Shown here: positions 52,266-63,799 of the stretch, one piece after another | Numbering within the stretch: position 1 is the stretch's first letter | Layout: the number at the start of each line of letters is the position of its first letter | Assembly (NCBI GenBank): GCA_017472605.1 | Contig: JAFUPV010000039.1 | Span: forward strand, 1-64,000 | Direction of reading: 5' to 3' | Source of the DNA: Lachnospiraceae bacterium | GTDB taxonomy: Bacteria > Bacillota > Clostridia > Lachnospirales > Lachnospiraceae | DNA length: 64,000 bases | Program-made: the position numbers and the translations under genes | Notes under the pieces: generated by a model | Told to the model about the DNA's origin: nothing | The model's input: only the letters and a program-made list of their open reading frames with translations | Database searches by the model: none

Positions 52266-52410
52266 AAATCTGCGTTGGATTACCGAATGAATTTCAGGAT
52301 CCAAACGTATCCCTGCCAGTTCCAAATCAACACCTTCCGGTTATCCGGACGGCCGGATTTTCTTCTCCTGGCAGGACGCTTACTGATCAAACATGGAGGA
52401 CCATTACATT

Positions 52411-53808
52411 ATGGAAAGAAAAAATGCATGGAGCAGCTGCTCCGCTGACGAGCTGACAAAAGTTATGCAGCTGTGTGAAGACTACCGCAAATTCATCTCT
52501 GTATGTAAAACAGAACGTGAATGTGTGACTGAAAGCATCCGAATCGCAGAAGCTGCCGGATATAAGAACCTTGATGAAGCAATTAAGAACGGTACCCCGC
52601 TGAAGGCCGGTGATAAGGTATATGCAAATAACATGGGCAAGACTCTTGCCCTTTTCTGCATCGGTACTGAGCCGATGGAGGCCGGAATGCATATCCTTGG
52701 TGCCCATGTGGATTCTCCGCGCATCGACTTAAAGCAGAATCCTGTTTACGAAAGCAACGATATCTGCCTGTTTGATACTCACTACTATGGCGGCATCAAA
52801 AAGTACCAGTGGGTTGCTCTTCCGCTTGCCATTCACGGTGTTGTTGCAAAGAAGGACGGCACTGTTGTCAATGTTGTGATCGGAGAAGATCCTTCCGATC
52901 CGGTTGTCGGCATCTCGGATCTTCTGATTCACCTGTCCGCCGATCAGATGAAGAAGCCCGGTGCCAATGTGATTGAGGGCGAGGCACTGAATGTTACCGT
53001 CGGCAGCAGACCGGATCCCAACGAGACGGATACCGATAAGAAAGAAAAAGTTAAGAGCTACCTTCTCTCCCTGCTGAAGGAGAAATATGACTTTGAGGAA
53101 GAAGACTTCCTTTCTGCAGAGCTGGAAGTTGTTCCTGCCGGTGAAGCCCGTGATTTCGGCATTGACCGCAGCATGATCATGGGCTACGGACATGACGACC
53201 GTGTTTGTGCCTACACCTCCCTTGTTGCCATGCTGGACGTAACCGCTCCGAAATATACCACCGTCTGCCTCCTTGTTGATAAGGAAGAGGTTGGAAGCAG
53301 CGGTGCAACCGGTATGCATTCCCGTTTCTTTGAGAACTATGTCGCAGAGCTGATTGCGCTTACTGCAGGAACCTACAGTGATCTGATCCTGCGCCGCTGC
53401 CTGAAGAATTCCAAGATGCTTTCTTCCGATGTCAGTGCTGCCTTCGATCCGAATTTCCCGGAGGTAAATGAAGCAAAGAATGCCGCTTATTTCGGCCGCG
53501 GCTTCTCCTTTAACAAGTACACCGGTTCCCGCGGAAAGAGCGGCTGCAACGACGCCAACGCAGAGTACATGGCATACTTAAGAAAAGTTATGGATGACAA
53601 CAATGTCTGCTTCCAGACGTCCGAACTGGGCAAGGTTGACCAGGGCGGCGGCGGAACCATTGCTTATATTCTCGCAAATTACGGCATGGAAGTGATTGAC
53701 TGCGGTGTTCCGGTACATAACATGCACGCGCCGTGGGAAGTTGTCAGCAAGATTGATGTTTATGAAACCACCAAGGGCTATATTGCGTTCCTGAAGGCAG
53801 ATCACTGA
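52411..53808 (+). CDS. M18-family aminopeptidase
   Basis: 465 residues from the ATG at 52411, with GGAGGA 10-11 nt upstream. Zinc aminopeptidase of the aspartyl-aminopeptidase (M18) family, forming large tetrahedral assemblies: LGAHVDSPRIDLKQNP (metal His and Asp), YGGIKKYQWVALPLAIHG, DKEEVGSSGATGMHSRFFE, and VPVHNMHAPWEVVSKIDVYE at the C-terminus. Cytosolic, no signal peptide. The 45-bp tandem repeat begins 12 bp after its stop. Confidence 0.95.
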   Translation: MERKNAWSSCSADELTKVMQLCEDYRKFISVCKTERECVTESIRIAEAAGYKNLDEAIKNGTPLKAGDKVYANNMGKTLALFCIGTEPMEAGMHILGAHVDSPRIDLKQNPVYESNDICLFDTHYYGGIKKYQWVALPLAIHGVVAKKDGTVVNVVIGEDPSDPVVGISDLLIHLSADQMKKPGANVIEGEALNVTVGSRPDPNETDTDKKEKVKSYLLSLLKEKYDFEEEDFLSAELEVVPAGEARDFGIDRSMIMGYGHDDRVCAYTSLVAMLDVTAPKYTTVCLLVDKEEVGSSGATGMHSRFFENYVAELIALTAGTYSDLILRRCLKNSKMLSSDVSAAFDPNFPEVNEAKNAAYFGRGFSFNKYTGSRGKSGCNDANAEYMAYLRKVMDDNNVCFQTSELGKVDQGGGGTIAYILANYGMEVIDCGVPVHNMHAPWEVVSKIDVYETTKGYIAFLKADH

Positions 53809-53820
53809 TCGGTTCACCTG

Positions 53821-54000
53821 GATGCAGGTCATTCCGATTGAACGCATTACTGGCATGTTTGCCTGGATGCAAGTCATTCCGATTGAACGCATTGCTGGCA
53901 TGTTCACCTGGATGCAAGTCATTCCGATTGAACGCATTGCTGGCATGTTCACCTGGATGCAAGTCATTCCGATTGAACGCATTGCTGGCATGTATGCCTG
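53821..54000. repeat. Tandem repeat, four copies of a 45-bp unit
   Basis: Four head-to-tail 45-bp units at 53821, 53866, 53911 and 53956, plus an 8-bp partial copy before the first. Copies 2 and 3 are identical; copies 1 and 4 differ by three or four bases, mainly at the array ends. Since 45 is divisible by 3, the array is open on both strands and would encode 15-residue repeats (plus strand MQVIPIERIAGMFTW; minus strand HASNAFNRNDLHPGE), but neither frame has a convincing start with a ribosome site. It lies between convergent genes. Confidence 0.95.
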
Positions 54001-57198: not shown

Positions 57199-58347
57199 TT
57201 ACCACAACTTCCGGTAAATTTCCATAATTTCTACTTTATTTGGTACTCTTGGATTGGTTGCTGTACAGCTGTCAGCCAGCGCAGCATCTGCCATTACGCT
57301 GACCTTTGACATGTACTCCTCTTCGGTACAGCATCCAATCTGAGAAACGGAAAGAGGGATGTCCATTTCTTTCATCATAAACTGCACCCAGTTAACCAGG
57401 GCACGAACTGTCGTGATCTGATTAAAATTCGTCAGACCAAGAAGCTTGGCGACGTTGACATAGCGCCTTACAACCGGCTTATATTCCTTTTTGCTTTTAC
57501 TGTGAACATCGATTTCACTGTTATATTCGATGATGTATGGCAAAAGCATGGCGTTTGCTCTTCCATGGGGAATGTGGAAATTTGCACCAAGCTGGTGTGC
57601 CATTCCATGGTTCAGTCCCAGGGAGGAAGAATTAAATGCCAGACCGGCAAGACAGGAAGCCACATGCATTTTCTGACGTGCATGGGTATCGGTATTGTCG
57701 TAGAAGGAACGCAAAAGGAAGGTACCGACAATCTCAATTGCCTTCTCCACCAGCGCCGCGGAAAACTCATTGCAATTCACGCTGACGTAAGCTTCCAGCG
57801 CATGGGTAAACACATCCATTCCTGTATCTGCTGTTACAGATGCCGGTACACTCTTCACCAGTTCCGCATCAAGAATTGCCTCCGTCGGAAGCAGCTGATC
57901 CGATACAAGCGGGTATTTCACTTTTTGCTGCGGATCTGTGATGACGGAAAAAGACGTCACCTCAGAACCGGTTCCGCTGGTAGTCGGAATCGCGATCAGA
58001 GCCGTGTTCTGTCCGTTTTCGGACATCTGGCGCCCAAATTCACGGATTGCTTTTGCGGAATCCATGGCAGATCCCCCTCCGACTGCAATGATCACATCCG
58101 GCTGATATTCCATCATCGCTTTCACACCGCAGACAATTTTATCAATGGGCGGATCCGGCACTACATCGGAAAAAACAGAAAACGCAATCCCGCTTCCTTC
58201 CAGACGATATGTAATCAGCTTGATCATTCCGCTCTTCACAACAAAAGGATCCGTTACGATCATCGCTCTTTTATAAGGAATCTCCGAAAGACGTTCCAGT
58301 GAATTCGCGCCAAAATAAATCTTCGTTCGAATATCGAAGCTTTTCAT
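57199..58347 (-). CDS. pduQ: Iron-containing alcohol dehydrogenase, PduQ-like
   Basis: 382 residues from the ATG at 58347, with GGAG 6 nt upstream. Group III Fe-dependent ADH: AVGGGSAMDSAKAI (NAD site), PTTSGTGSEVTSFSVI, and metal ligands in DVFTHALEAYVS, GLNHGMAHQLG and IPHGRANA. In BMC loci this enzyme reduces the aldehyde to alcohol and recycles NAD+ inside the shell. It is the last gene after the regulator-ParA-AT-hook group, 14 nt after the AT-hook gene. No obvious N-terminal encapsulation helix. Confidence 0.9.
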   Translation of the reverse strand: MKSFDIRTKIYFGANSLERLSEIPYKRAMIVTDPFVVKSGMIKLITYRLEGSGIAFSVFSDVVPDPPIDKIVCGVKAMMEYQPDVIIAVGGGSAMDSAKAIREFGRQMSENGQNTALIAIPTTSGTGSEVTSFSVITDPQQKVKYPLVSDQLLPTEAILDAELVKSVPASVTADTGMDVFTHALEAYVSVNCNEFSAALVEKAIEIVGTFLLRSFYDNTDTHARQKMHVASCLAGLAFNSSSLGLNHGMAHQLGANFHIPHGRANAMLLPYIIEYNSEIDVHSKSKKEYKPVVRRYVNVAKLLGLTNFNQITTVRALVNWVQFMMKEMDIPLSVSQIGCCTEEEYMSKVSVMADAALADSCTATNPRVPNKVEIMEIYRKLW

Positions 58348-58361
58348 CATCTTCTCCAATC

Positions 58362-58688
58362 TTATAACAGATAATCCGGCAGGACACAGGTGATTCTGGA
58401 GCGAACGGCTGCTTGTGTTTCAATTTCCGCCATCCCAGCTTCTTTTTTCCCTGCAGTCTCTTCAGACGCTTTTTTAAGCTCTGCTGTTTCAGACACAGCG
58501 TTCGTTTCTTTCTTCTCAGACACGGTTTTCACTTCAGCCGGTTCGGACACAGTCTGTTCCGCAGCATTCACTGCAGTCTTTCTTGGGCGTCCCCTCTTTT
58601 TCGCAGCTGCAGGAACAACTGCTTCCCCGCTTTCTGCTCCTGTTGGAACCGTACCTGTTTCTGTTTCGTTTTTTGCAGCCTTACTCAT
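58362..58688 (-). CDS. Small AT-hook, disordered protein next to ParA
   Basis: 108 residues from the ATG at 58688, 16 nt after the ParA stop, with AAGGGAAG upstream; the frame is open further upstream inside parA but without a site. An AT-hook-like motif KKRGRPRK (30-37) suggests minor-groove DNA binding. Residues 1-28 and 40-95 are Ala/Glu/Lys/Thr/Ser-rich, low-complexity and probably disordered or weakly helical, and the last ten residues (ITCVLPDYLL) are hydrophobic. No known domain otherwise. By position it could be the ParA partner, comparable to McdB or ParB-like adaptors, linking cargo and ATPase. Function is inferred. Confidence 0.75.
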   Translation of the reverse strand: MSKAAKNETETGTVPTGAESGEAVVPAAAKKRGRPRKTAVNAAEQTVSEPAEVKTVSEKKETNAVSETAELKKASEETAGKKEAGMAEIETQAAVRSRITCVLPDYLL

Positions 58689-58704
58689 GCGCTGCAGACT
58701 TCCC

Positions 58705-59493
58705 TTACCTACTGCCAAGCTGATCAACCTCCTTCGCCAATTCCATGTATTCCTGTGCGCTTCTGCTGCTCTTTTTATAGGCAATAACAGGCATGCTGTT
58801 GTCCTGAGACCACTCGATCATGCTGTCCATGCGGATAAAGCTGTTGAATACATGAACTTCTTCCTGTGCATTTAAATACTCCATCGTCTGTTTCACATAA
58901 TTTTTTCTTGTGTCCACCTTCGTGACCGCAATTCCCATCAGCTTCAGTGCAGGCGAAATCTTCTGCACCTCTTTCAGGAAATCAAACATGTTCGCCAGAC
59001 CGAACAGCCCCCACGGACTCGCCTCCACAGGGATCACCAGATAATCAGACGCAATCAGCAGATTCATGACAAAGCAGCCAAGAGTCGGCGGTGCGTCCAA
59101 CAGAATATAATCATACTCGCCTGAATTCTTTACTTCTTCCAGACAATTCCGAAGAATAAACTCTCTCTGCCATTTGGTAAACAGATCAAATTCAATCCCG
59201 CTCATCAGTGATGAGGATGGAATCAGGTCAAGATTTTCATAGGCAGTATGATAAATACAGTCTCTCAGATTTTTCTGTTCCAGAATTCCACGATACAGAT
59301 TCCGGTCACTCTTTGCAATCTCCAGCACCTGATCCTCTGAAAAATAAGCAAGTGAGAGATTGCACTGCATATCCCCATCCAGCATCAGCACTTTTTTTCC
59401 AAGCATTGTTAAACCATAGGCAACGTTGGAACAGGTCGTCGATTTTCCGCTTCCGCCTTTGTTATTGGCAAAGCAAATCACTTTTGTCTTCAT
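58705..59493 (-). CDS. ParA-family ATPase of the microcompartment locus (McdA-like)
   Basis: 262 residues. Deviant Walker A KGGSGKST (12-19) with the signature lysine, Walker A' LDGDMQCN and Walker B ILLDAPPT. ParA ATPases form ATP-dependent dimers on the nucleoid and position plasmids, chromosomes or protein cargos; McdA does so for carboxysomes. No parB gene or parS-like site is seen, and the gene lies inside the BMC locus between the regulator (10 nt) and the AT-hook gene (16 nt), so cargo positioning of the microcompartment is the likeliest job. Confidence 0.88.
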   Translation of the reverse strand: MKTKVICFANNKGGSGKSTTCSNVAYGLTMLGKKVLMLDGDMQCNLSLAYFSEDQVLEIAKSDRNLYRGILEQKNLRDCIYHTAYENLDLIPSSSLMSGIEFDLFTKWQREFILRNCLEEVKNSGEYDYILLDAPPTLGCFVMNLLIASDYLVIPVEASPWGLFGLANMFDFLKEVQKISPALKLMGIAVTKVDTRKNYVKQTMEYLNAQEEVHVFNSFIRMDSMIEWSQDNSMPVIAYKKSSRSAQEYMELAKEVDQLGSR

Positions 59494-59503
59494 TGTAAAT
59501 CCC

Positions 59504-60292
59504 TCACTGCAGTTCGGTTTTCCAGGTCATCCCCGGATAAACACACACAACTCCCTCCGCGTTAAACACCTGCTTCCATTTCTCGGACGGCTCCTTATCC
59601 GTAACGATCATGGTAACATCATGGATCTTTCCAATCTCAGTGAAAGAAATTTTATCGAATTTCGAACTGTCAACAGCCAGAATTTTCTTCGAAGCCGAAT
59701 CAATCATCGTTTTCTTCAGCTGGGCGAAGCTTTCACTGGCATCCGTCAGTCCACGCACCGGATCCAGCCCTTTGCAGGAAACGATTGCTTTTCCCACATG
59801 GAACGTTGAAAGCATCTTTTCTGCCTGATGACCGACAAAAGCAAGAGAGCCTTCTCTCATCGTTCCTCCGGTCGAAAGAATCTTCCATCCGCTGACATCC
59901 GCAAGCTCAATCAGCACCTCCACCGAATTGGTGATTACGGTAATGTTTTTCTTGTTTTTAATATTCTGTGCAACGAACACAGCCGTAGAACTGGCATCCA
60001 GCATGATCTGGTCTCCATCCCGGATCATGGATCCAATCAGTTTTGCAATCTGTTGTTTACCTGCTACATTGGTATTCTTTCGTACAACAAACGGTAACTC
60101 TGCATTGGAATTCTCTTTAATCACTGCGCCTCCATACGTTTTCGTAGCATAGCCGTCTTTTTCCAGCTTTTCCAGGTCACGGCGGATCGTCTCCTCGGAA
60201 ACGTCAAAATCGTGACTCAGTTCGCTGACAACTACCTTCTTATCCGTCTGCAGCTTTTCTAAAATCTTATTTCTTCTTTCAATGGCCAGCAA
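59504..60292 (-). CDS. DeoR/GlpR-family transcriptional regulator
   Basis: 262 residues from a TTG start at 60292, supported by a perfect AGGAGG with 8-nt spacing. N-terminal winged HTH (RRNKILEKLQTDKKVVVSEL, VSEETIRRDLEKLEKDGYATKTYGGA) and a sugar-phosphate-sensing DeoR C-terminal domain (DGDQIMLDASSTAVFVAQ, KILAVDSSKFDK). DeoR regulators are typical of fucose/rhamnose-linked BMC loci, where they sense a deoxysugar phosphate. That ligand is inferred. It starts a group with parA, the AT-hook gene and pduQ, after a terminator following pduT. Confidence 0.92.
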   Translation of the reverse strand: MLAIERRNKILEKLQTDKKVVVSELSHDFDVSEETIRRDLEKLEKDGYATKTYGGAVIKENSNAELPFVVRKNTNVAGKQQIAKLIGSMIRDGDQIMLDASSTAVFVAQNIKNKKNITVITNSVEVLIELADVSGWKILSTGGTMREGSLAFVGHQAEKMLSTFHVGKAIVSCKGLDPVRGLTDASESFAQLKKTMIDSASKKILAVDSSKFDKISFTEIGKIHDVTMIVTDKEPSEKWKQVFNAEGVVCVYPGMTWKTELQ

Positions 60293-60464: not shown

Positions 60465-61013
60465 TTATAAAATATGATCACGAATCTTTTTATCCGGTCT
60501 CGGAATCACGGAGGAATCCAGATACATTCCTGACTCCCCTACTGTCTCCTTCGCTCTGCTGATCGCAGCCTGAACAGCTGCCACATCTCCTGTCAGGAAC
60601 ATGTAGGATTTACCGCACATGCCACGTGCCAGTCTCAATTCGATCAGCTGTACATCTGCTGTCTTTGCCGCCTGATCTGCAGCAACAATGATCGCTGCAG
60701 CGTCATAGGTCTCAAGAATGCCAAGCGCAGCCACTTCTTCAATCTCCGCAGCACCATAAATTGCCGGGAAAATAGACTCATGCGGATTTCCCAACACAAA
60801 GCTGTCAATCAGATGTGTTCCATGAGCCACCTTTGCAGTCTCAACCGCCGCATTCACCGCACTCAGATCTCCCGATAAAATCACAATATACTTACCAGGA
60901 CACACCGTCGTTGCCTCAATGATTGAGACTTCTGACGTCTTTACCATGGCATCAGCTGCCGTTACTCCTGCGGACACAGTTTTAAATTCAGCCATTCCAA
61001 TTGCTTTACTCAT
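60465..61013 (-). CDS. pduT: Tandem-BMC shell protein PduT
   Basis: 182 residues from the ATG at 61013: two BMC domains (about 4-88 and 95-178), so a pseudohexameric trimer. The pore loop of the first domain holds Cys38 in TTVCPGK, at the same position where PduT ligates a central [4Fe-4S] cluster. The second domain has RGMCGKSYMF and ends in SVIPRPDKKIRDHIL. PduT is thought to pass electrons across the shell to PduS, encoded 16 nt upstream. Confidence 0.95.
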   Translation of the reverse strand: MSKAIGMAEFKTVSAGVTAADAMVKTSEVSIIEATTVCPGKYIVILSGDLSAVNAAVETAKVAHGTHLIDSFVLGNPHESIFPAIYGAAEIEEVAALGILETYDAAAIIVAADQAAKTADVQLIELRLARGMCGKSYMFLTGDVAAVQAAISRAKETVGESGMYLDSSVIPRPDKKIRDHIL

Positions 61014-61029
61014 TTGGTCCACATCCTTT

Positions 61030-62358
61030 CTACTTTACTGCATCAATCATCACAAACTGATCATTAACTTCCCGCACAATTCCATCAATGGAAGCGTGAA
61101 TCGCAACAGACAGTCCCTTTGCTGCTTCCGCGATCACCGTGCCCTTTGTCACCTGGTCACCGACTTTCACAATTGCAGCAGCAGGTGCGCCGATGTGCTG
61201 GCGGAGCATGATCTTCACACGATTTACCGGTACCGGACTTTCATCCAGCGGTGCATCTGCGTCATATCTGGTCAGATCAAGACGTGCCATCAGACGCTTC
61301 ATCGGTGCTTTTCTCATTTCCCTGGATTCTGCAACCGGTGCTGCCGTCACCTGAGGTGCGCGAACACCTGCCGCTCTTAGTCCATTTTTATATTCTGCCA
61401 TCAGCGTCCGCGGAGACAGCCCCTGCATGCAGGAATACATCTCACAAAGACCGCAGGACGAACAAAACAGCGTATTCACAAAAATTGACGGATCCTGAAT
61501 GTCCTTACAGGTCGCCGCTCTCATGAACAGATGCGGTTCAATCGGATGACCAAGCGCATGGCGCGGGCACAGATCGGTACACATCTGACACTGACAGCAG
61601 CTTGCCGCCGCTCTTGCCAGATTTACTTTTGCATTCTGCTGCTTTTTCTGAACCAGCAGATGATCTTTCGGAAGAACAAGTACCGCATTGGTAGTCTTTG
61701 TTACTACCGACTGTCCGGAACCGATAAATCCCATCATCGGTCCGCCGATGAAATATACCGGATCCTTTATCGTAGAGCCGCCTGCCAGCTGAACACATTC
61801 TTCAATCGTGCAGCCAATCGGGACACGTACCGTAACCGGTCGGCTCACCTCCGCAACAACGGAAACTAGCTTATCTACAACCGGTTTCTGCTGATTCATC
61901 GCACAGTACAGGTTGTAGATTGTCTCTACATTAAACACTGCAACACCACTTTCGATTGGAAGTCCGCCCGGACGAACAACCTTACCAGTGGCTTCATATA
62001 TCAAAACGACCTCATCACCTGCCGGATATACCTCATCCAGCAGAGCAATGCGCATTTTAGCAAACATGCCAATGTTTGCACGCAATGCTTCAATGGTCTT
62101 CTTATAGGCTTTTTTAATTCCAATCACCATTTCATCAGCGCCAACTGCTTCACCTACAACAGCAAAGGCACTCATGATCTCATATGCATATTTTTCCAGT
62201 AACTGTCTGTGTAAACGAAGTAAGGGTTCACACTCTGCGCAGTTGAGAAGAATGGTTTTTGCATTCTCATTCAGCTTTGCATAGGTCGGGAATCCGGCTC
62301 CGCCTGCACCAACAACACCGTTTTGCTGCAAAATGCCGCTTAACTCTTTCAAATTCAT
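61030..62358 (-). CDS. pduS: PduS-like cobalamin/electron-transfer flavoprotein (RnfC-type)
   Basis: 442 residues from the ATG at 62358. N-terminal NADH/FMN region GVVGAGGAGFPTYAKL (15-29) and LLNCAECEPLL (38-47); SLBB-like middle part; two ferredoxin-type cysteine groups, CCQCQMCTDLCP (254-265) and CSSCGLCEMYSC (299-310); and a C-terminal barrel-sandwich domain (VGDQVTKGTVIAEAAKGLSVAIHASIDG). In B12-dependent systems PduS reduces cobalamin; in glycyl-radical systems it more likely feeds electrons to the activase or balances NADH. Which applies here depends on genes beyond the window. Confidence 0.93.
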   Translation of the reverse strand: MNLKELSGILQQNGVVGAGGAGFPTYAKLNENAKTILLNCAECEPLLRLHRQLLEKYAYEIMSAFAVVGEAVGADEMVIGIKKAYKKTIEALRANIGMFAKMRIALLDEVYPAGDEVVLIYEATGKVVRPGGLPIESGVAVFNVETIYNLYCAMNQQKPVVDKLVSVVAEVSRPVTVRVPIGCTIEECVQLAGGSTIKDPVYFIGGPMMGFIGSGQSVVTKTTNAVLVLPKDHLLVQKKQQNAKVNLARAAASCCQCQMCTDLCPRHALGHPIEPHLFMRAATCKDIQDPSIFVNTLFCSSCGLCEMYSCMQGLSPRTLMAEYKNGLRAAGVRAPQVTAAPVAESREMRKAPMKRLMARLDLTRYDADAPLDESPVPVNRVKIMLRQHIGAPAAAIVKVGDQVTKGTVIAEAAKGLSVAIHASIDGIVREVNDQFVMIDAVK

Positions 62359-62365
62359 CTGATCA

Positions 62366-62638
62366 CTACTCCAGTCCCGATCCATCGTCAATAATTCCTA
62401 CAATCGCCGCATCTACCGGTGCCTGAGCCATCCCGCACCCGATTCTTGCAGCACTTCCTGTCGCAACAAGAACATATTCACCAATACCGGCACCAATGTT
62501 ATCAATCGCCACAAATCTTCCTGAGCCAAATTTGGGCGCCGGTTCTATGATCATAAACTTATTTCCGATCAGGTTTTCATTCTTCCGTGTAGAAACAATG
62601 CTTCCTACTACTTTTCCAGCCAACATCTCTGTTACCAT
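62366..62638 (-). CDS. pduN: BMC vertex (pentamer) protein, PduN/EutN/CcmL family
   Basis: 90 residues from the ATG at 62638, preceded by AGGAAAGG; the ATG at 62626 is an alternative. Single-domain vertex protein: MLAGKVVGSIVSTRKNENLIG, FVAIDNIGAGIGEYVLVATGSAAR and DAAIVGIIDD. Five-fold caps close the polyhedral shell. The stop is 7 nt before pduS, while 95 nt separate it from pduL upstream. Confidence 0.95.
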   Translation of the reverse strand: MVTEMLAGKVVGSIVSTRKNENLIGNKFMIIEPAPKFGSGRFVAIDNIGAGIGEYVLVATGSAARIGCGMAQAPVDAAIVGIIDDGSGLE

Positions 62639-62688
62639 ACCTTTCCTGATTCTCGCCAAACTTCAACAGTCCGGAAGCAGAATCCTCT

Positions 62689-62733: not shown

Positions 62734-63375
62734 TCAATCCTTTATGATCATCACTTTATCATTTGTTTTGATCTTTGCCGCATTCGCTTCATCGGTATCA
62801 ATGTGCATTTCCAGCGTGAAACTGTCGTCCACGCGGATCTGGACATGATTGAACACGGTTCCGCGTTCATTGTCAGCTTTTACCGAAACTTCCTGTCCGT
62901 CCACCACACCTGCTGCTGCCGCATCTGCCGGTGTCATGTGGATATGGCGCTTTGCGATGATGCAGCCTTCCTTTAAGTACAGAACGCCTTTCGGACCAAC
63001 AATTGCGATTGGAGCCGATCCCTCTGTCTTTCCAGACTCGCGAATTGGCGCATTGATTCCAAGCTTCAGCGCGTCTGTCGCAGAAACTTCAACCTGAGAA
63101 GCCTTTCTGGTCGGTCCCAGAACACGAACATTCTCAATCGCGCGAAGCTTGATGCCAACCAGTGTTACGCACTCGTTGGAAGCAAACTGTCCGCCCATCA
63201 GCTCTTTTTTCTTTGTCAGCTTATAGCCCTCACCAAACAGGGTTTCCACATCTGCCTGTGTCAGATGGACATGCCTTGCGGACACTCCCACCGGTACCTG
63301 GTAACCGTTGGAGGAAGACTTCTGCGCTTCCAGCGCCTGCAGTACCAGTCTTGTGATTTGTTCTACCTGAGTCAT
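62734..63375 (-). CDS. pduL: Phosphate propanoyltransferase PduL
   Basis: 213 residues from the ATG at 63375. Converts propionyl-CoA (or acetyl-CoA) and phosphate to acyl phosphate plus CoA, recycling CoA inside the shell. Residues 3-18 form an amphipathic helix followed by a Ser/Asn linker, the usual encapsulation peptide. Metal ligands: SARHVHL (His35, His37), KRHIHM (His144, His146) and His191 (LEMHIDTDE). Two PduL domains of the normal length. It lies between a BMC-H gene and pduN. Confidence 0.96.
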   Translation of the reverse strand: MTQVEQITRLVLQALEAQKSSSNGYQVPVGVSARHVHLTQADVETLFGEGYKLTKKKELMGGQFASNECVTLVGIKLRAIENVRVLGPTRKASQVEVSATDALKLGINAPIRESGKTEGSAPIAIVGPKGVLYLKEGCIIAKRHIHMTPADAAAAGVVDGQEVSVKADNERGTVFNHVQIRVDDSFTLEMHIDTDEANAAKIKTNDKVMIIKD

Positions 63376-63445
63376 CTGCCACACCTTTCCAGAAGGAGCG
63401 GAAATCCGCTCCTTCCAAATTTATTAATCGTCATTCTGCAAACGC

Positions 63446-63724
63446 TTATTTCATCTCCGGCAGAATCTTCTCAACATCATTGTGCGGTCTCGGGATTACA
63501 TGGGTAGCAACCAGCTCACCAAGCTTGGAAGCTGCTGCTGCGCCTGCCTCTACTGCAGCCTTAACTGCACCAACATCACCACGAACCATTACAGATACCA
63601 GTCCGGATCCGATCTTCTCAGTTCCTACCAGTGTAACGTTTGCAGCCTTTAACATCTGGTCTGCTGCTTCGATATTTGCTACAAGACCTCTGGTCTCAAC
63701 CATTCCTAATGCTTCCTGTGCCAT
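63446..63724 (-). CDS. BMC-H shell protein (PduA/PduJ-like)
   Basis: 92 residues from the ATG at 63724, one BMC domain ([30 protein letters not shown]). It forms hexagonal facets. The pore loop is KIGSGLV, the PduA/PduJ type. Ends [15 protein letters not shown], a canonical BMC-H tail. The ribosome site is AGGAGG. Confidence 0.96.
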
Positions 63725-63799
63725 GAATTTTTCCTCCTGTTTTTGTTTCATGTGTATGCATATGTATGCATCATATTTCAGGTCTGCTCTGCGCTTTCC

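Follow-up and report, generated by a model that had tools for sequence, protein, structure and literature searches.

We sought to determine what a ParA-type ATPase, and the small protein encoded directly behind it, do within a bacterial microcompartment locus of a Lachnospiraceae bacterium. The window, by which we mean the whole 64,000-nucleotide stretch analyzed, comprises positions 1-64000 of one contig of a 3.68 Mb draft genome. A preliminary description of this DNA had noted the ATPase (KGGSGKST at residues 12-19), its position between the locus regulator and pduQ, and a following protein with KKRGRPRK and a hydrophobic C-terminal end. All of these are present, the end reading VLPDYLL in the frame that finishes at 58362. 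It had further proposed that the pair positions a catabolic microcompartment, with the AT-hook making the small protein a new type of adaptor. On the minus strand the genes run DeoR regulator, parA, partner and pduQ-like alcohol dehydrogenase, and shell and core genes lie upstream (Table 1).

Past the end of the window the locus continues with further shell genes, an aldehyde dehydrogenase, a class II aldolase, PduV, and a glycyl radical enzyme with its activase. A zinc alcohol dehydrogenase is likewise encoded upstream of the pair, in the compartment locus. GRM5 microcompartments, which are of the L-fucose/L-rhamnose type, are described as having DeoR, PduS, a zinc alcohol dehydrogenase and a class II aldolase (PMC4207490). 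Compared with that definition, the locus has the glycyl radical enzyme and activase, class II aldolase, aldehyde dehydrogenase, zinc alcohol dehydrogenase, PduS-like protein, DeoR and shell genes of a fucose/rhamnose GRM5 locus; the comparison covered these genes of a definition that also includes a hydrolase and DUF336. Elsewhere in the window, four tandem copies of a 45-base unit (53812-53993) lie directly behind a 471-amino-acid open reading frame (52393-53808, plus strand). The same genome also has a satellite locus (L011, C59:21080-22425) in which a GTPase that is PduV-like by reading comes after two PF00936 shell genes.

Table 1. Features of the ParA/partner pair and of the surrounding microcompartment locus (positions in the window).
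Feature	Position	Strand	Remarks
Iron alcohol dehydrogenase, pduQ-like	57199-58359	minus	name pduQ from the preliminary description; also adjoins the pair in several relatives
Partner (putative adaptor) gene, 118 aa	58362-58718	minus	from TTG 58718; overlaps the parA end by 14 nt
LPDYLL, partner C-terminus	58365-58382	minus	predicted compartment-binding end
KKRGRPRK, AT-hook-like, partner residues 40-47	58578-58601	minus	local to few lineages
Partner codons 1-12, MAVGKGSLQRMS	58683-58718	minus	conserved N-terminus, predicted ParA-binding peptide
parA, ParA/Soj-type ATPase, 262 aa	58705-59493	minus	KGGSGKST Walker A at residues 12-19; Pfam AAA_31 8.5e-54
AAGGAGG ribosome-binding site of partner	58728-58734	minus	inside parA, 9 nt before TTG; like arrangement in relatives
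DeoR-type regulator of the locus	59504-60292	minus	Pfam DeoRC 5.4e-48
BMC-T shell protein, two BMC domains	60465-61022	minus	domain match
PduS-like protein	61030-62391	minus	Nuo51 FMN domain and RnfC-type domain
EutN/CcmL-type vertex protein (BMC-P)	62366-62659	minus	
PduL-type phosphate propanoyltransferase	62734-63384	minus	
BMC-H shell protein	63446-63751	minus	

The ATPase belongs to a clade of its own. A search of 250 genomes of the family (the first sample: the window's genome plus 249 relatives; no genus label repeats in the rows shown) returned 27 relatives at 51-75% identity with E-values of 7.7e-76 or better. Below this clade, among the matches listed, identity falls to 30-38% and E-values are 1.7e-43 or worse. 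A separate set of 391 genomes from the class, screened with a threshold of E 1e-60, added two from outside the family that carry the clade ParA (65% and 60% identity). A second sample consisted of 80 loci from genome contigs, the best of 501 relatives. The closest solved structures to the window's ParA are those of ParA/Soj; McdA, the carboxysome-positioning ATPase, matches at 7.6e-13 by sequence and ranks 19 by fold. Both by sequence and by predicted fold, the ATPase is thus nearer to ParA/Soj than to McdA, and a single-chain model of it confirms the ParA fold only.

The preliminary description had suggested asking whether the pair co-occurs with shell genes rather than with plasmid genes, and for the ParA clade it does. 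In the first sample, PF00936 is present in 73 of the 249 relatives. All 27 relatives with the clade ParA are shell-positive, compared with 46 of the 222 that lack it (Fisher p 7e-17, a test that ignores relatedness). Shell-type genes, judged by likeness to the window's locus, lie on the fetched stretch in 20 of the 80 loci of the second sample. Of the other 60 loci, 11 repeat contigs of the first sample. A search of the 49 further genomes that this leaves, none with a shell gene seen on the fetched stretch, gave PF00936 above cut-off in 49/49. That stretch spanned 10 kb on both sides of parA in 25 of the 49, so that in some genomes shell genes may be nearer than seen. PF00936 is also present in both (2/2) of the other-family genomes with the clade ParA.

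The association extends beyond one kind of compartment. A GRM5-like aldehyde dehydrogenase (at least 66% identity) occurs in 25 of the 27 ParA genomes of the first sample and in 23 of the 46 other shell-positive ones. The two exceptions are a genome in which one shell gene was found (G042) and one with an ethanolamine operon (G080), where the pair (L064) is divergent to an ethanolamine microcompartment operon that encodes EutA, EutB and EutC by Pfam. Because of this distribution, the clade tracks shells that are mostly, but not solely, of one kind. The place of the pair within compartment loci varies as well: after DeoR, after PduV or beside the ethanolamine operon. Among 48 relatives that encode a GRM5-type aldehyde dehydrogenase, 23 have no clade ParA, which implies that ParA is dispensable.

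Among the matches listed for the ATPase, the best from plasmids reaches 41.5% identity and the best from phages 35%, and the 5000 best-scoring plasmid records all lie under 60%; an origin as a plasmid or phage cassette was rejected on these best listed matches. In the plasmid collection, the ParA of the best match is followed by an open reading frame that is ParB-like by reading, and that of the next (37.9%) by an annotated ParB. The record with the best match, NZ_CP154629.1 (L214), is a 2.6 Mb Acetoanaerobium noterae sequence filed as a plasmid.

We then considered the partner, beginning with its start. The preliminary description gave it 108 residues and placed it 16 nt behind parA, figures that hold only for a start at the ATG at 58688. 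A TTG at 58718, within the end of parA and 9 nt behind AAGGAGG, gives a protein of 118 residues that begins MAVGKGSLQR. In 54 relatives of the second sample, the partner starts 13, 9, 19 or 25 nt before the end of parA (40, 8, 5 and 1 cases, respectively). Since this overlapping start and the same N-terminus recur in relatives, the ATG reading drops one of the best conserved parts of the protein. Judged from the sequence, the partner was mis-started in the earlier reading, and the TTG restores the conserved N-terminus.

A partner follows parA in 21 of 28 first-sample loci, the window's included, and in 56 of 80 second-sample loci (54 found by regular expression, L151 and L195 by inspection of reading frames). 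Culturable commensals with the pair include Blautia massiliensis, Blautia luti, Blautia caecimuris and Diplocloster agilis. We assembled 65 distinct partners from 75 sequences, a set that excludes L151, L195 and the other-family member L219. They share an N-terminal motif, M-x-[VI]-G-K-x-S-[IL]-x-[RK], with M at position 8 in 3; G4, S7 and an R or K at position 10 occur in 65/65, and K5 in 54/65. The C-terminal motif [LMIV]-P-x-[YFHW]-[LYM]-[LMFR] is found in 64/65, the remaining one ending LETYLL, and position -3 is aromatic or H in every one (Y 47, F 8, W 3, H 7). The two motifs are conserved to about the same degree. Between them lie linkers that are unalike, in proteins of 67-215 residues (median pI 9.7). 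Linker net charge has a median of +7, is negative in 4/65 and is +1 in the window's own protein. AKKP-like units occur at least twice in 24/65 partners, and the script's pattern found none in the window's protein. That two ends are conserved over 65 distinct sequences with such linkers is more than chance.

The AT-hook, on which the earlier proposal of a new adaptor type had rested, does not share in this conservation. The match of the window's partner sits at the Pfam cut-off (17.4 bits against 17.4 for the 108-residue form, 17.2 for the 118-residue form), and AT-hook-like cores occur in only 5/65 partners. We therefore rejected the AT-hook as a hallmark of the family, and the proposal of a new AT-hook adaptor is unsupported; what the family conserves is an N-terminal peptide resembling those that bind ParA, and a C-terminal aromatic motif. 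With the median pI and linker charge given above, the linker may contact DNA, but the window's linker has a net charge of +1 and its AT-hook is at threshold.

When a partner profile was run over the 250 first-sample genomes, it gave 25 matches, four of them in shell-negative genomes (G014, G049, G058 and G228). Each of these four (E-values of 0.008 to 2.7e-5) covers only part of the linker, within positions 20-97 of the 106 in the model, and reaches neither end of the model; two lie inside frames of 686 and 855 amino acids. We took them as low-complexity matches. The same profile missed the partner of G157, which an earlier profile search had matched, and both searches missed that of G179.

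Some partners carry a further domain between the two conserved ends. Pfam ParB_N matches the middle part of seven (L046, L054, L144, L170, L163, L175 and L197), and also that of L219, which branches first in the ParA tree (support 93/94). Another partner, L192, is unmatched by Pfam ParB_N and matches a profile of four partners (L046, L054, L144, L170) at 2.8e-9, with 0 of 650 shuffled decoys matching; its ParA falls next to the window's own branch (98/87), but on a long branch. Nine members, namely 8 of the 65 partners and L219, thus carry a ParB_N-like domain, and Pfam reported no helix-turn-helix (HTH) in the eight of them that match ParB_N. In the window's partner, Pfam found neither ParB_N nor HTH, AT_hook being its only match. 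Given these nine members, the partner resembles a ParB that has been reduced to an adaptor for cargo. For the nine ParB_N-like rows the ParA tree requires five label changes, and well-supported branches force three of these; the count comes from a quicker, relabelled tree, the first tree having had L151 and L195 labelled as partnerless and four ParB_N-like rows labelled as short. Repeated loss of ParB_N from a ParB-like ancestor would be the simplest reading of this pattern.

The two genes also occur apart. One ParA clade of 29 rows (97/97, with bootstrap values not fully settled), none of which adjoins a partner gene, holds every partnerless locus except the other-family L218. A profile search found no partner elsewhere in the 7 partnerless first-sample genomes, with a profile that missed 1 of 21 known partners. 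None was seen near L148, L194, L055, L056 or L048 in the three forward frames behind parA, or in a scan of the stretch for open reading frames with the C-terminal motif. Conversely, G062 has no clade ParA and encodes, behind its DeoR, a basic protein that ends IPTYLL and is without the N-terminal motif. G016, a genome 87% complete that gave no ParA match at 1e-30, encodes a similar protein ending LPIHLL. These two cases would fit an N-terminus that serves ParA and a C-terminus that serves the compartment. A motif search behind DeoR in the 23 GRM5 genomes without the clade ParA found only the G062 protein (L116), with three of the 23 stretches (L096, L110 and L111) stopping before the regulator. 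Short motif matches in the other loci L127 and L133 were set aside as chance open reading frames.

From the genes, their conservation, their co-occurrence with shell genes and the ParB_N-like domains of nine members, we infer that the ATPase and its partner probably form an ATP-driven, McdAB-like pair that positions a catabolic microcompartment, of GRM5 type by gene content, and that the partner probably descends from ParB. The earlier proposal of microcompartment positioning thus stands as the best reading of the shell co-occurrence, with positioning itself as the inferred part. Across the family, the pair would use the nucleoid to space compartments for fucose/rhamnose (GRM5-type) or for ethanolamine. 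ParA would bind the nucleoid as an ATP dimer. The partner would hold the compartment through its C-terminal LPxYLL end, and its N-terminal VGKGSxxR peptide would touch the ParA dimer, leading to ATP hydrolysis and release; compartments would then be pulled up the ParA gradient and so become spaced. In its descent from ParB, the partner would have retained the N-terminal peptide that binds ParA but not the domain that reads DNA. A tag for cargo would have been added at the C-terminus, and the ParB_N domain would in most lines have given way to a disordered, mostly basic linker. Known systems offer models for these steps. Aliphatic and basic residues make up the ParB peptides that, jointly with DNA, activate ParA (PMC12462528), and McdB binds McdA through its first 20 residues, which include Lys7 (PMC12204374). 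A C-terminal aromatic residue of McdB is needed for carboxysome binding, where Y largely replaces W (PMC11321042). By analogy, the window's pair has parts that match those of ParB and McdB, and in matching order.

We would also raise, as a tentative and rather doubtful extension, that ParB here turned organelle adaptor in a fuller sense. In members with the ParB_N-like domain, a CTP-gated clamp might persist; by bringing N-terminal peptides together in pairs on the shell, it would switch ParA. The others, the window's included, might have swapped the clamp for a disordered linker that touches DNA through AT-hook or histone-like repeats, gripping ParA, nucleoid and compartment at once.

The same features can be read in other ways. 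Histone-like domains let PhaF and PhaM tether granules to the nucleoid (PMC5658603, PMC13052382), and the partner could likewise be mainly a static tether, anchored to the shell by its C-terminus and to DNA by its basic linker or AT-hook, while ParA does no more than tune it. The mostly basic linkers and the AKKP-like units repeated in 24/65 partners speak for this, as do the two ParA-less genomes that retain the linker and C-terminal end. A tether would leave unexplained why conservation is about as strong at the N-terminal motif as at the C-terminal one and why a ParB_N-like domain occupies the middle of nine members, and the window's own linker, with a net charge of +1 and no AKKP-like unit by the script's pattern, suits it poorly; we regard this reading as unlikely. 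That the pair adjoins DeoR in the window, and that the partnerless L048 sits in a rhamnose operon beside an AraC regulator, with RhaA and an FGGY kinase, would agree with a pair that regulates transcription of the fucose/rhamnose and compartment genes as a ParA/AT-hook DNA-binding switch. So few partners have an AT-hook, however, and the C-terminal aromatic motif and the ethanolamine setting of G080 would be so unexpected for a sugar regulator, that we give this little credence.

A leftover or captured plasmid or chromosome partition cassette, with no role in the compartment, would account for a Soj-like ParA and for ParB_N-like domains in nine partners. It is hard to reconcile with shell genes in every searched genome that has the clade, with the low identity of the best plasmid and phage matches listed, or with a window partner in which Pfam finds neither ParB_N nor HTH, and we consider it highly improbable. 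Positioning by the ParA/partner pair nevertheless has points counted against it: the dispensable ParA, the 29-row clade that holds the partnerless loci, the Soj-like ParA, and PduV, which is also encoded in the locus and is a GTPase suggested for Pdu positioning (PMC8262871). In Salmonella, moreover, neither adding McdAB nor removing ParA or MinD affected Pdu compartments (PMC12866334).

Set beside McdA/McdB, the pair has a ParA-type ATPase gene at a microcompartment locus, an association seen at locus and genome level; a small partner directly downstream with a basic, conserved N-terminus, a likeness of sequence; and a C-terminal aromatic residue, which is W in carboxysome McdB, Y or F in putative McdBs and Y, F, H or W at position -3 here. 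Unlike McdAB, it has a ParA nearer to Soj, belongs with catabolic compartments, has partner relatives that bear ParB_N and ends in LPxYLL. With ParABS (Soj/Spo0J) it shares the ParA fold, an aliphatic-basic N-terminal motif and, in some partners, ParB_N; it differs in that Pfam reported no HTH in the partners scanned and in that its predicted cargo is a protein shell. Many partners have a basic AAKP-like stretch that may liken them to PhaF, PhaM and AlgP, as would the predicted holding of an organelle on the nucleoid. Unlike those proteins, the family is linked to a ParA ATPase, the partners scanned had no phasin match by Pfam and the window's protein is without repeats by the script's pattern. 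To AT-hook proteins the likeness is a single GRP core in the window's protein, at the Pfam threshold; the family does not conserve it.

Published work already describes putative McdAB pairs from PDU, GRM and ethanolamine loci (PMC8262871, PMC11321042, PMC13052382), so this kind of pair is known. The putative McdB-like proteins of PDU and GRM loci in PMC11321042 come from the same kind of locus and have Y or F in the last five residues, and that set may include the present partner family. The available parts of that paper describe for them no ParB_N-like domain, AT-hook, co-occurrence count or ParA-less forms. In the available parts of the literature on McdAB-like pairs, we found no ParB_N-bearing partners and no account of ParA/shell co-occurrence, and the founding McdAB surveys may list the family. 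As far as our search reached, the ParB link, the shell co-occurrence and the partner start are new.

A 2021 review (PMC8262871) lists it as an outstanding question whether ATP-driven positioning exists for any catabolic microcompartment. A ParA clade with shell genes in every searched genome, gut anaerobes among others, makes this question testable, since the two ends of its partner are separable by truncation. If the partner is a reduced ParB, the family would mark a route by which chromosome partition was turned to the positioning of organelles, and VGKGSxxR and LPxYLL would be two simple tags for steering engineered compartments.
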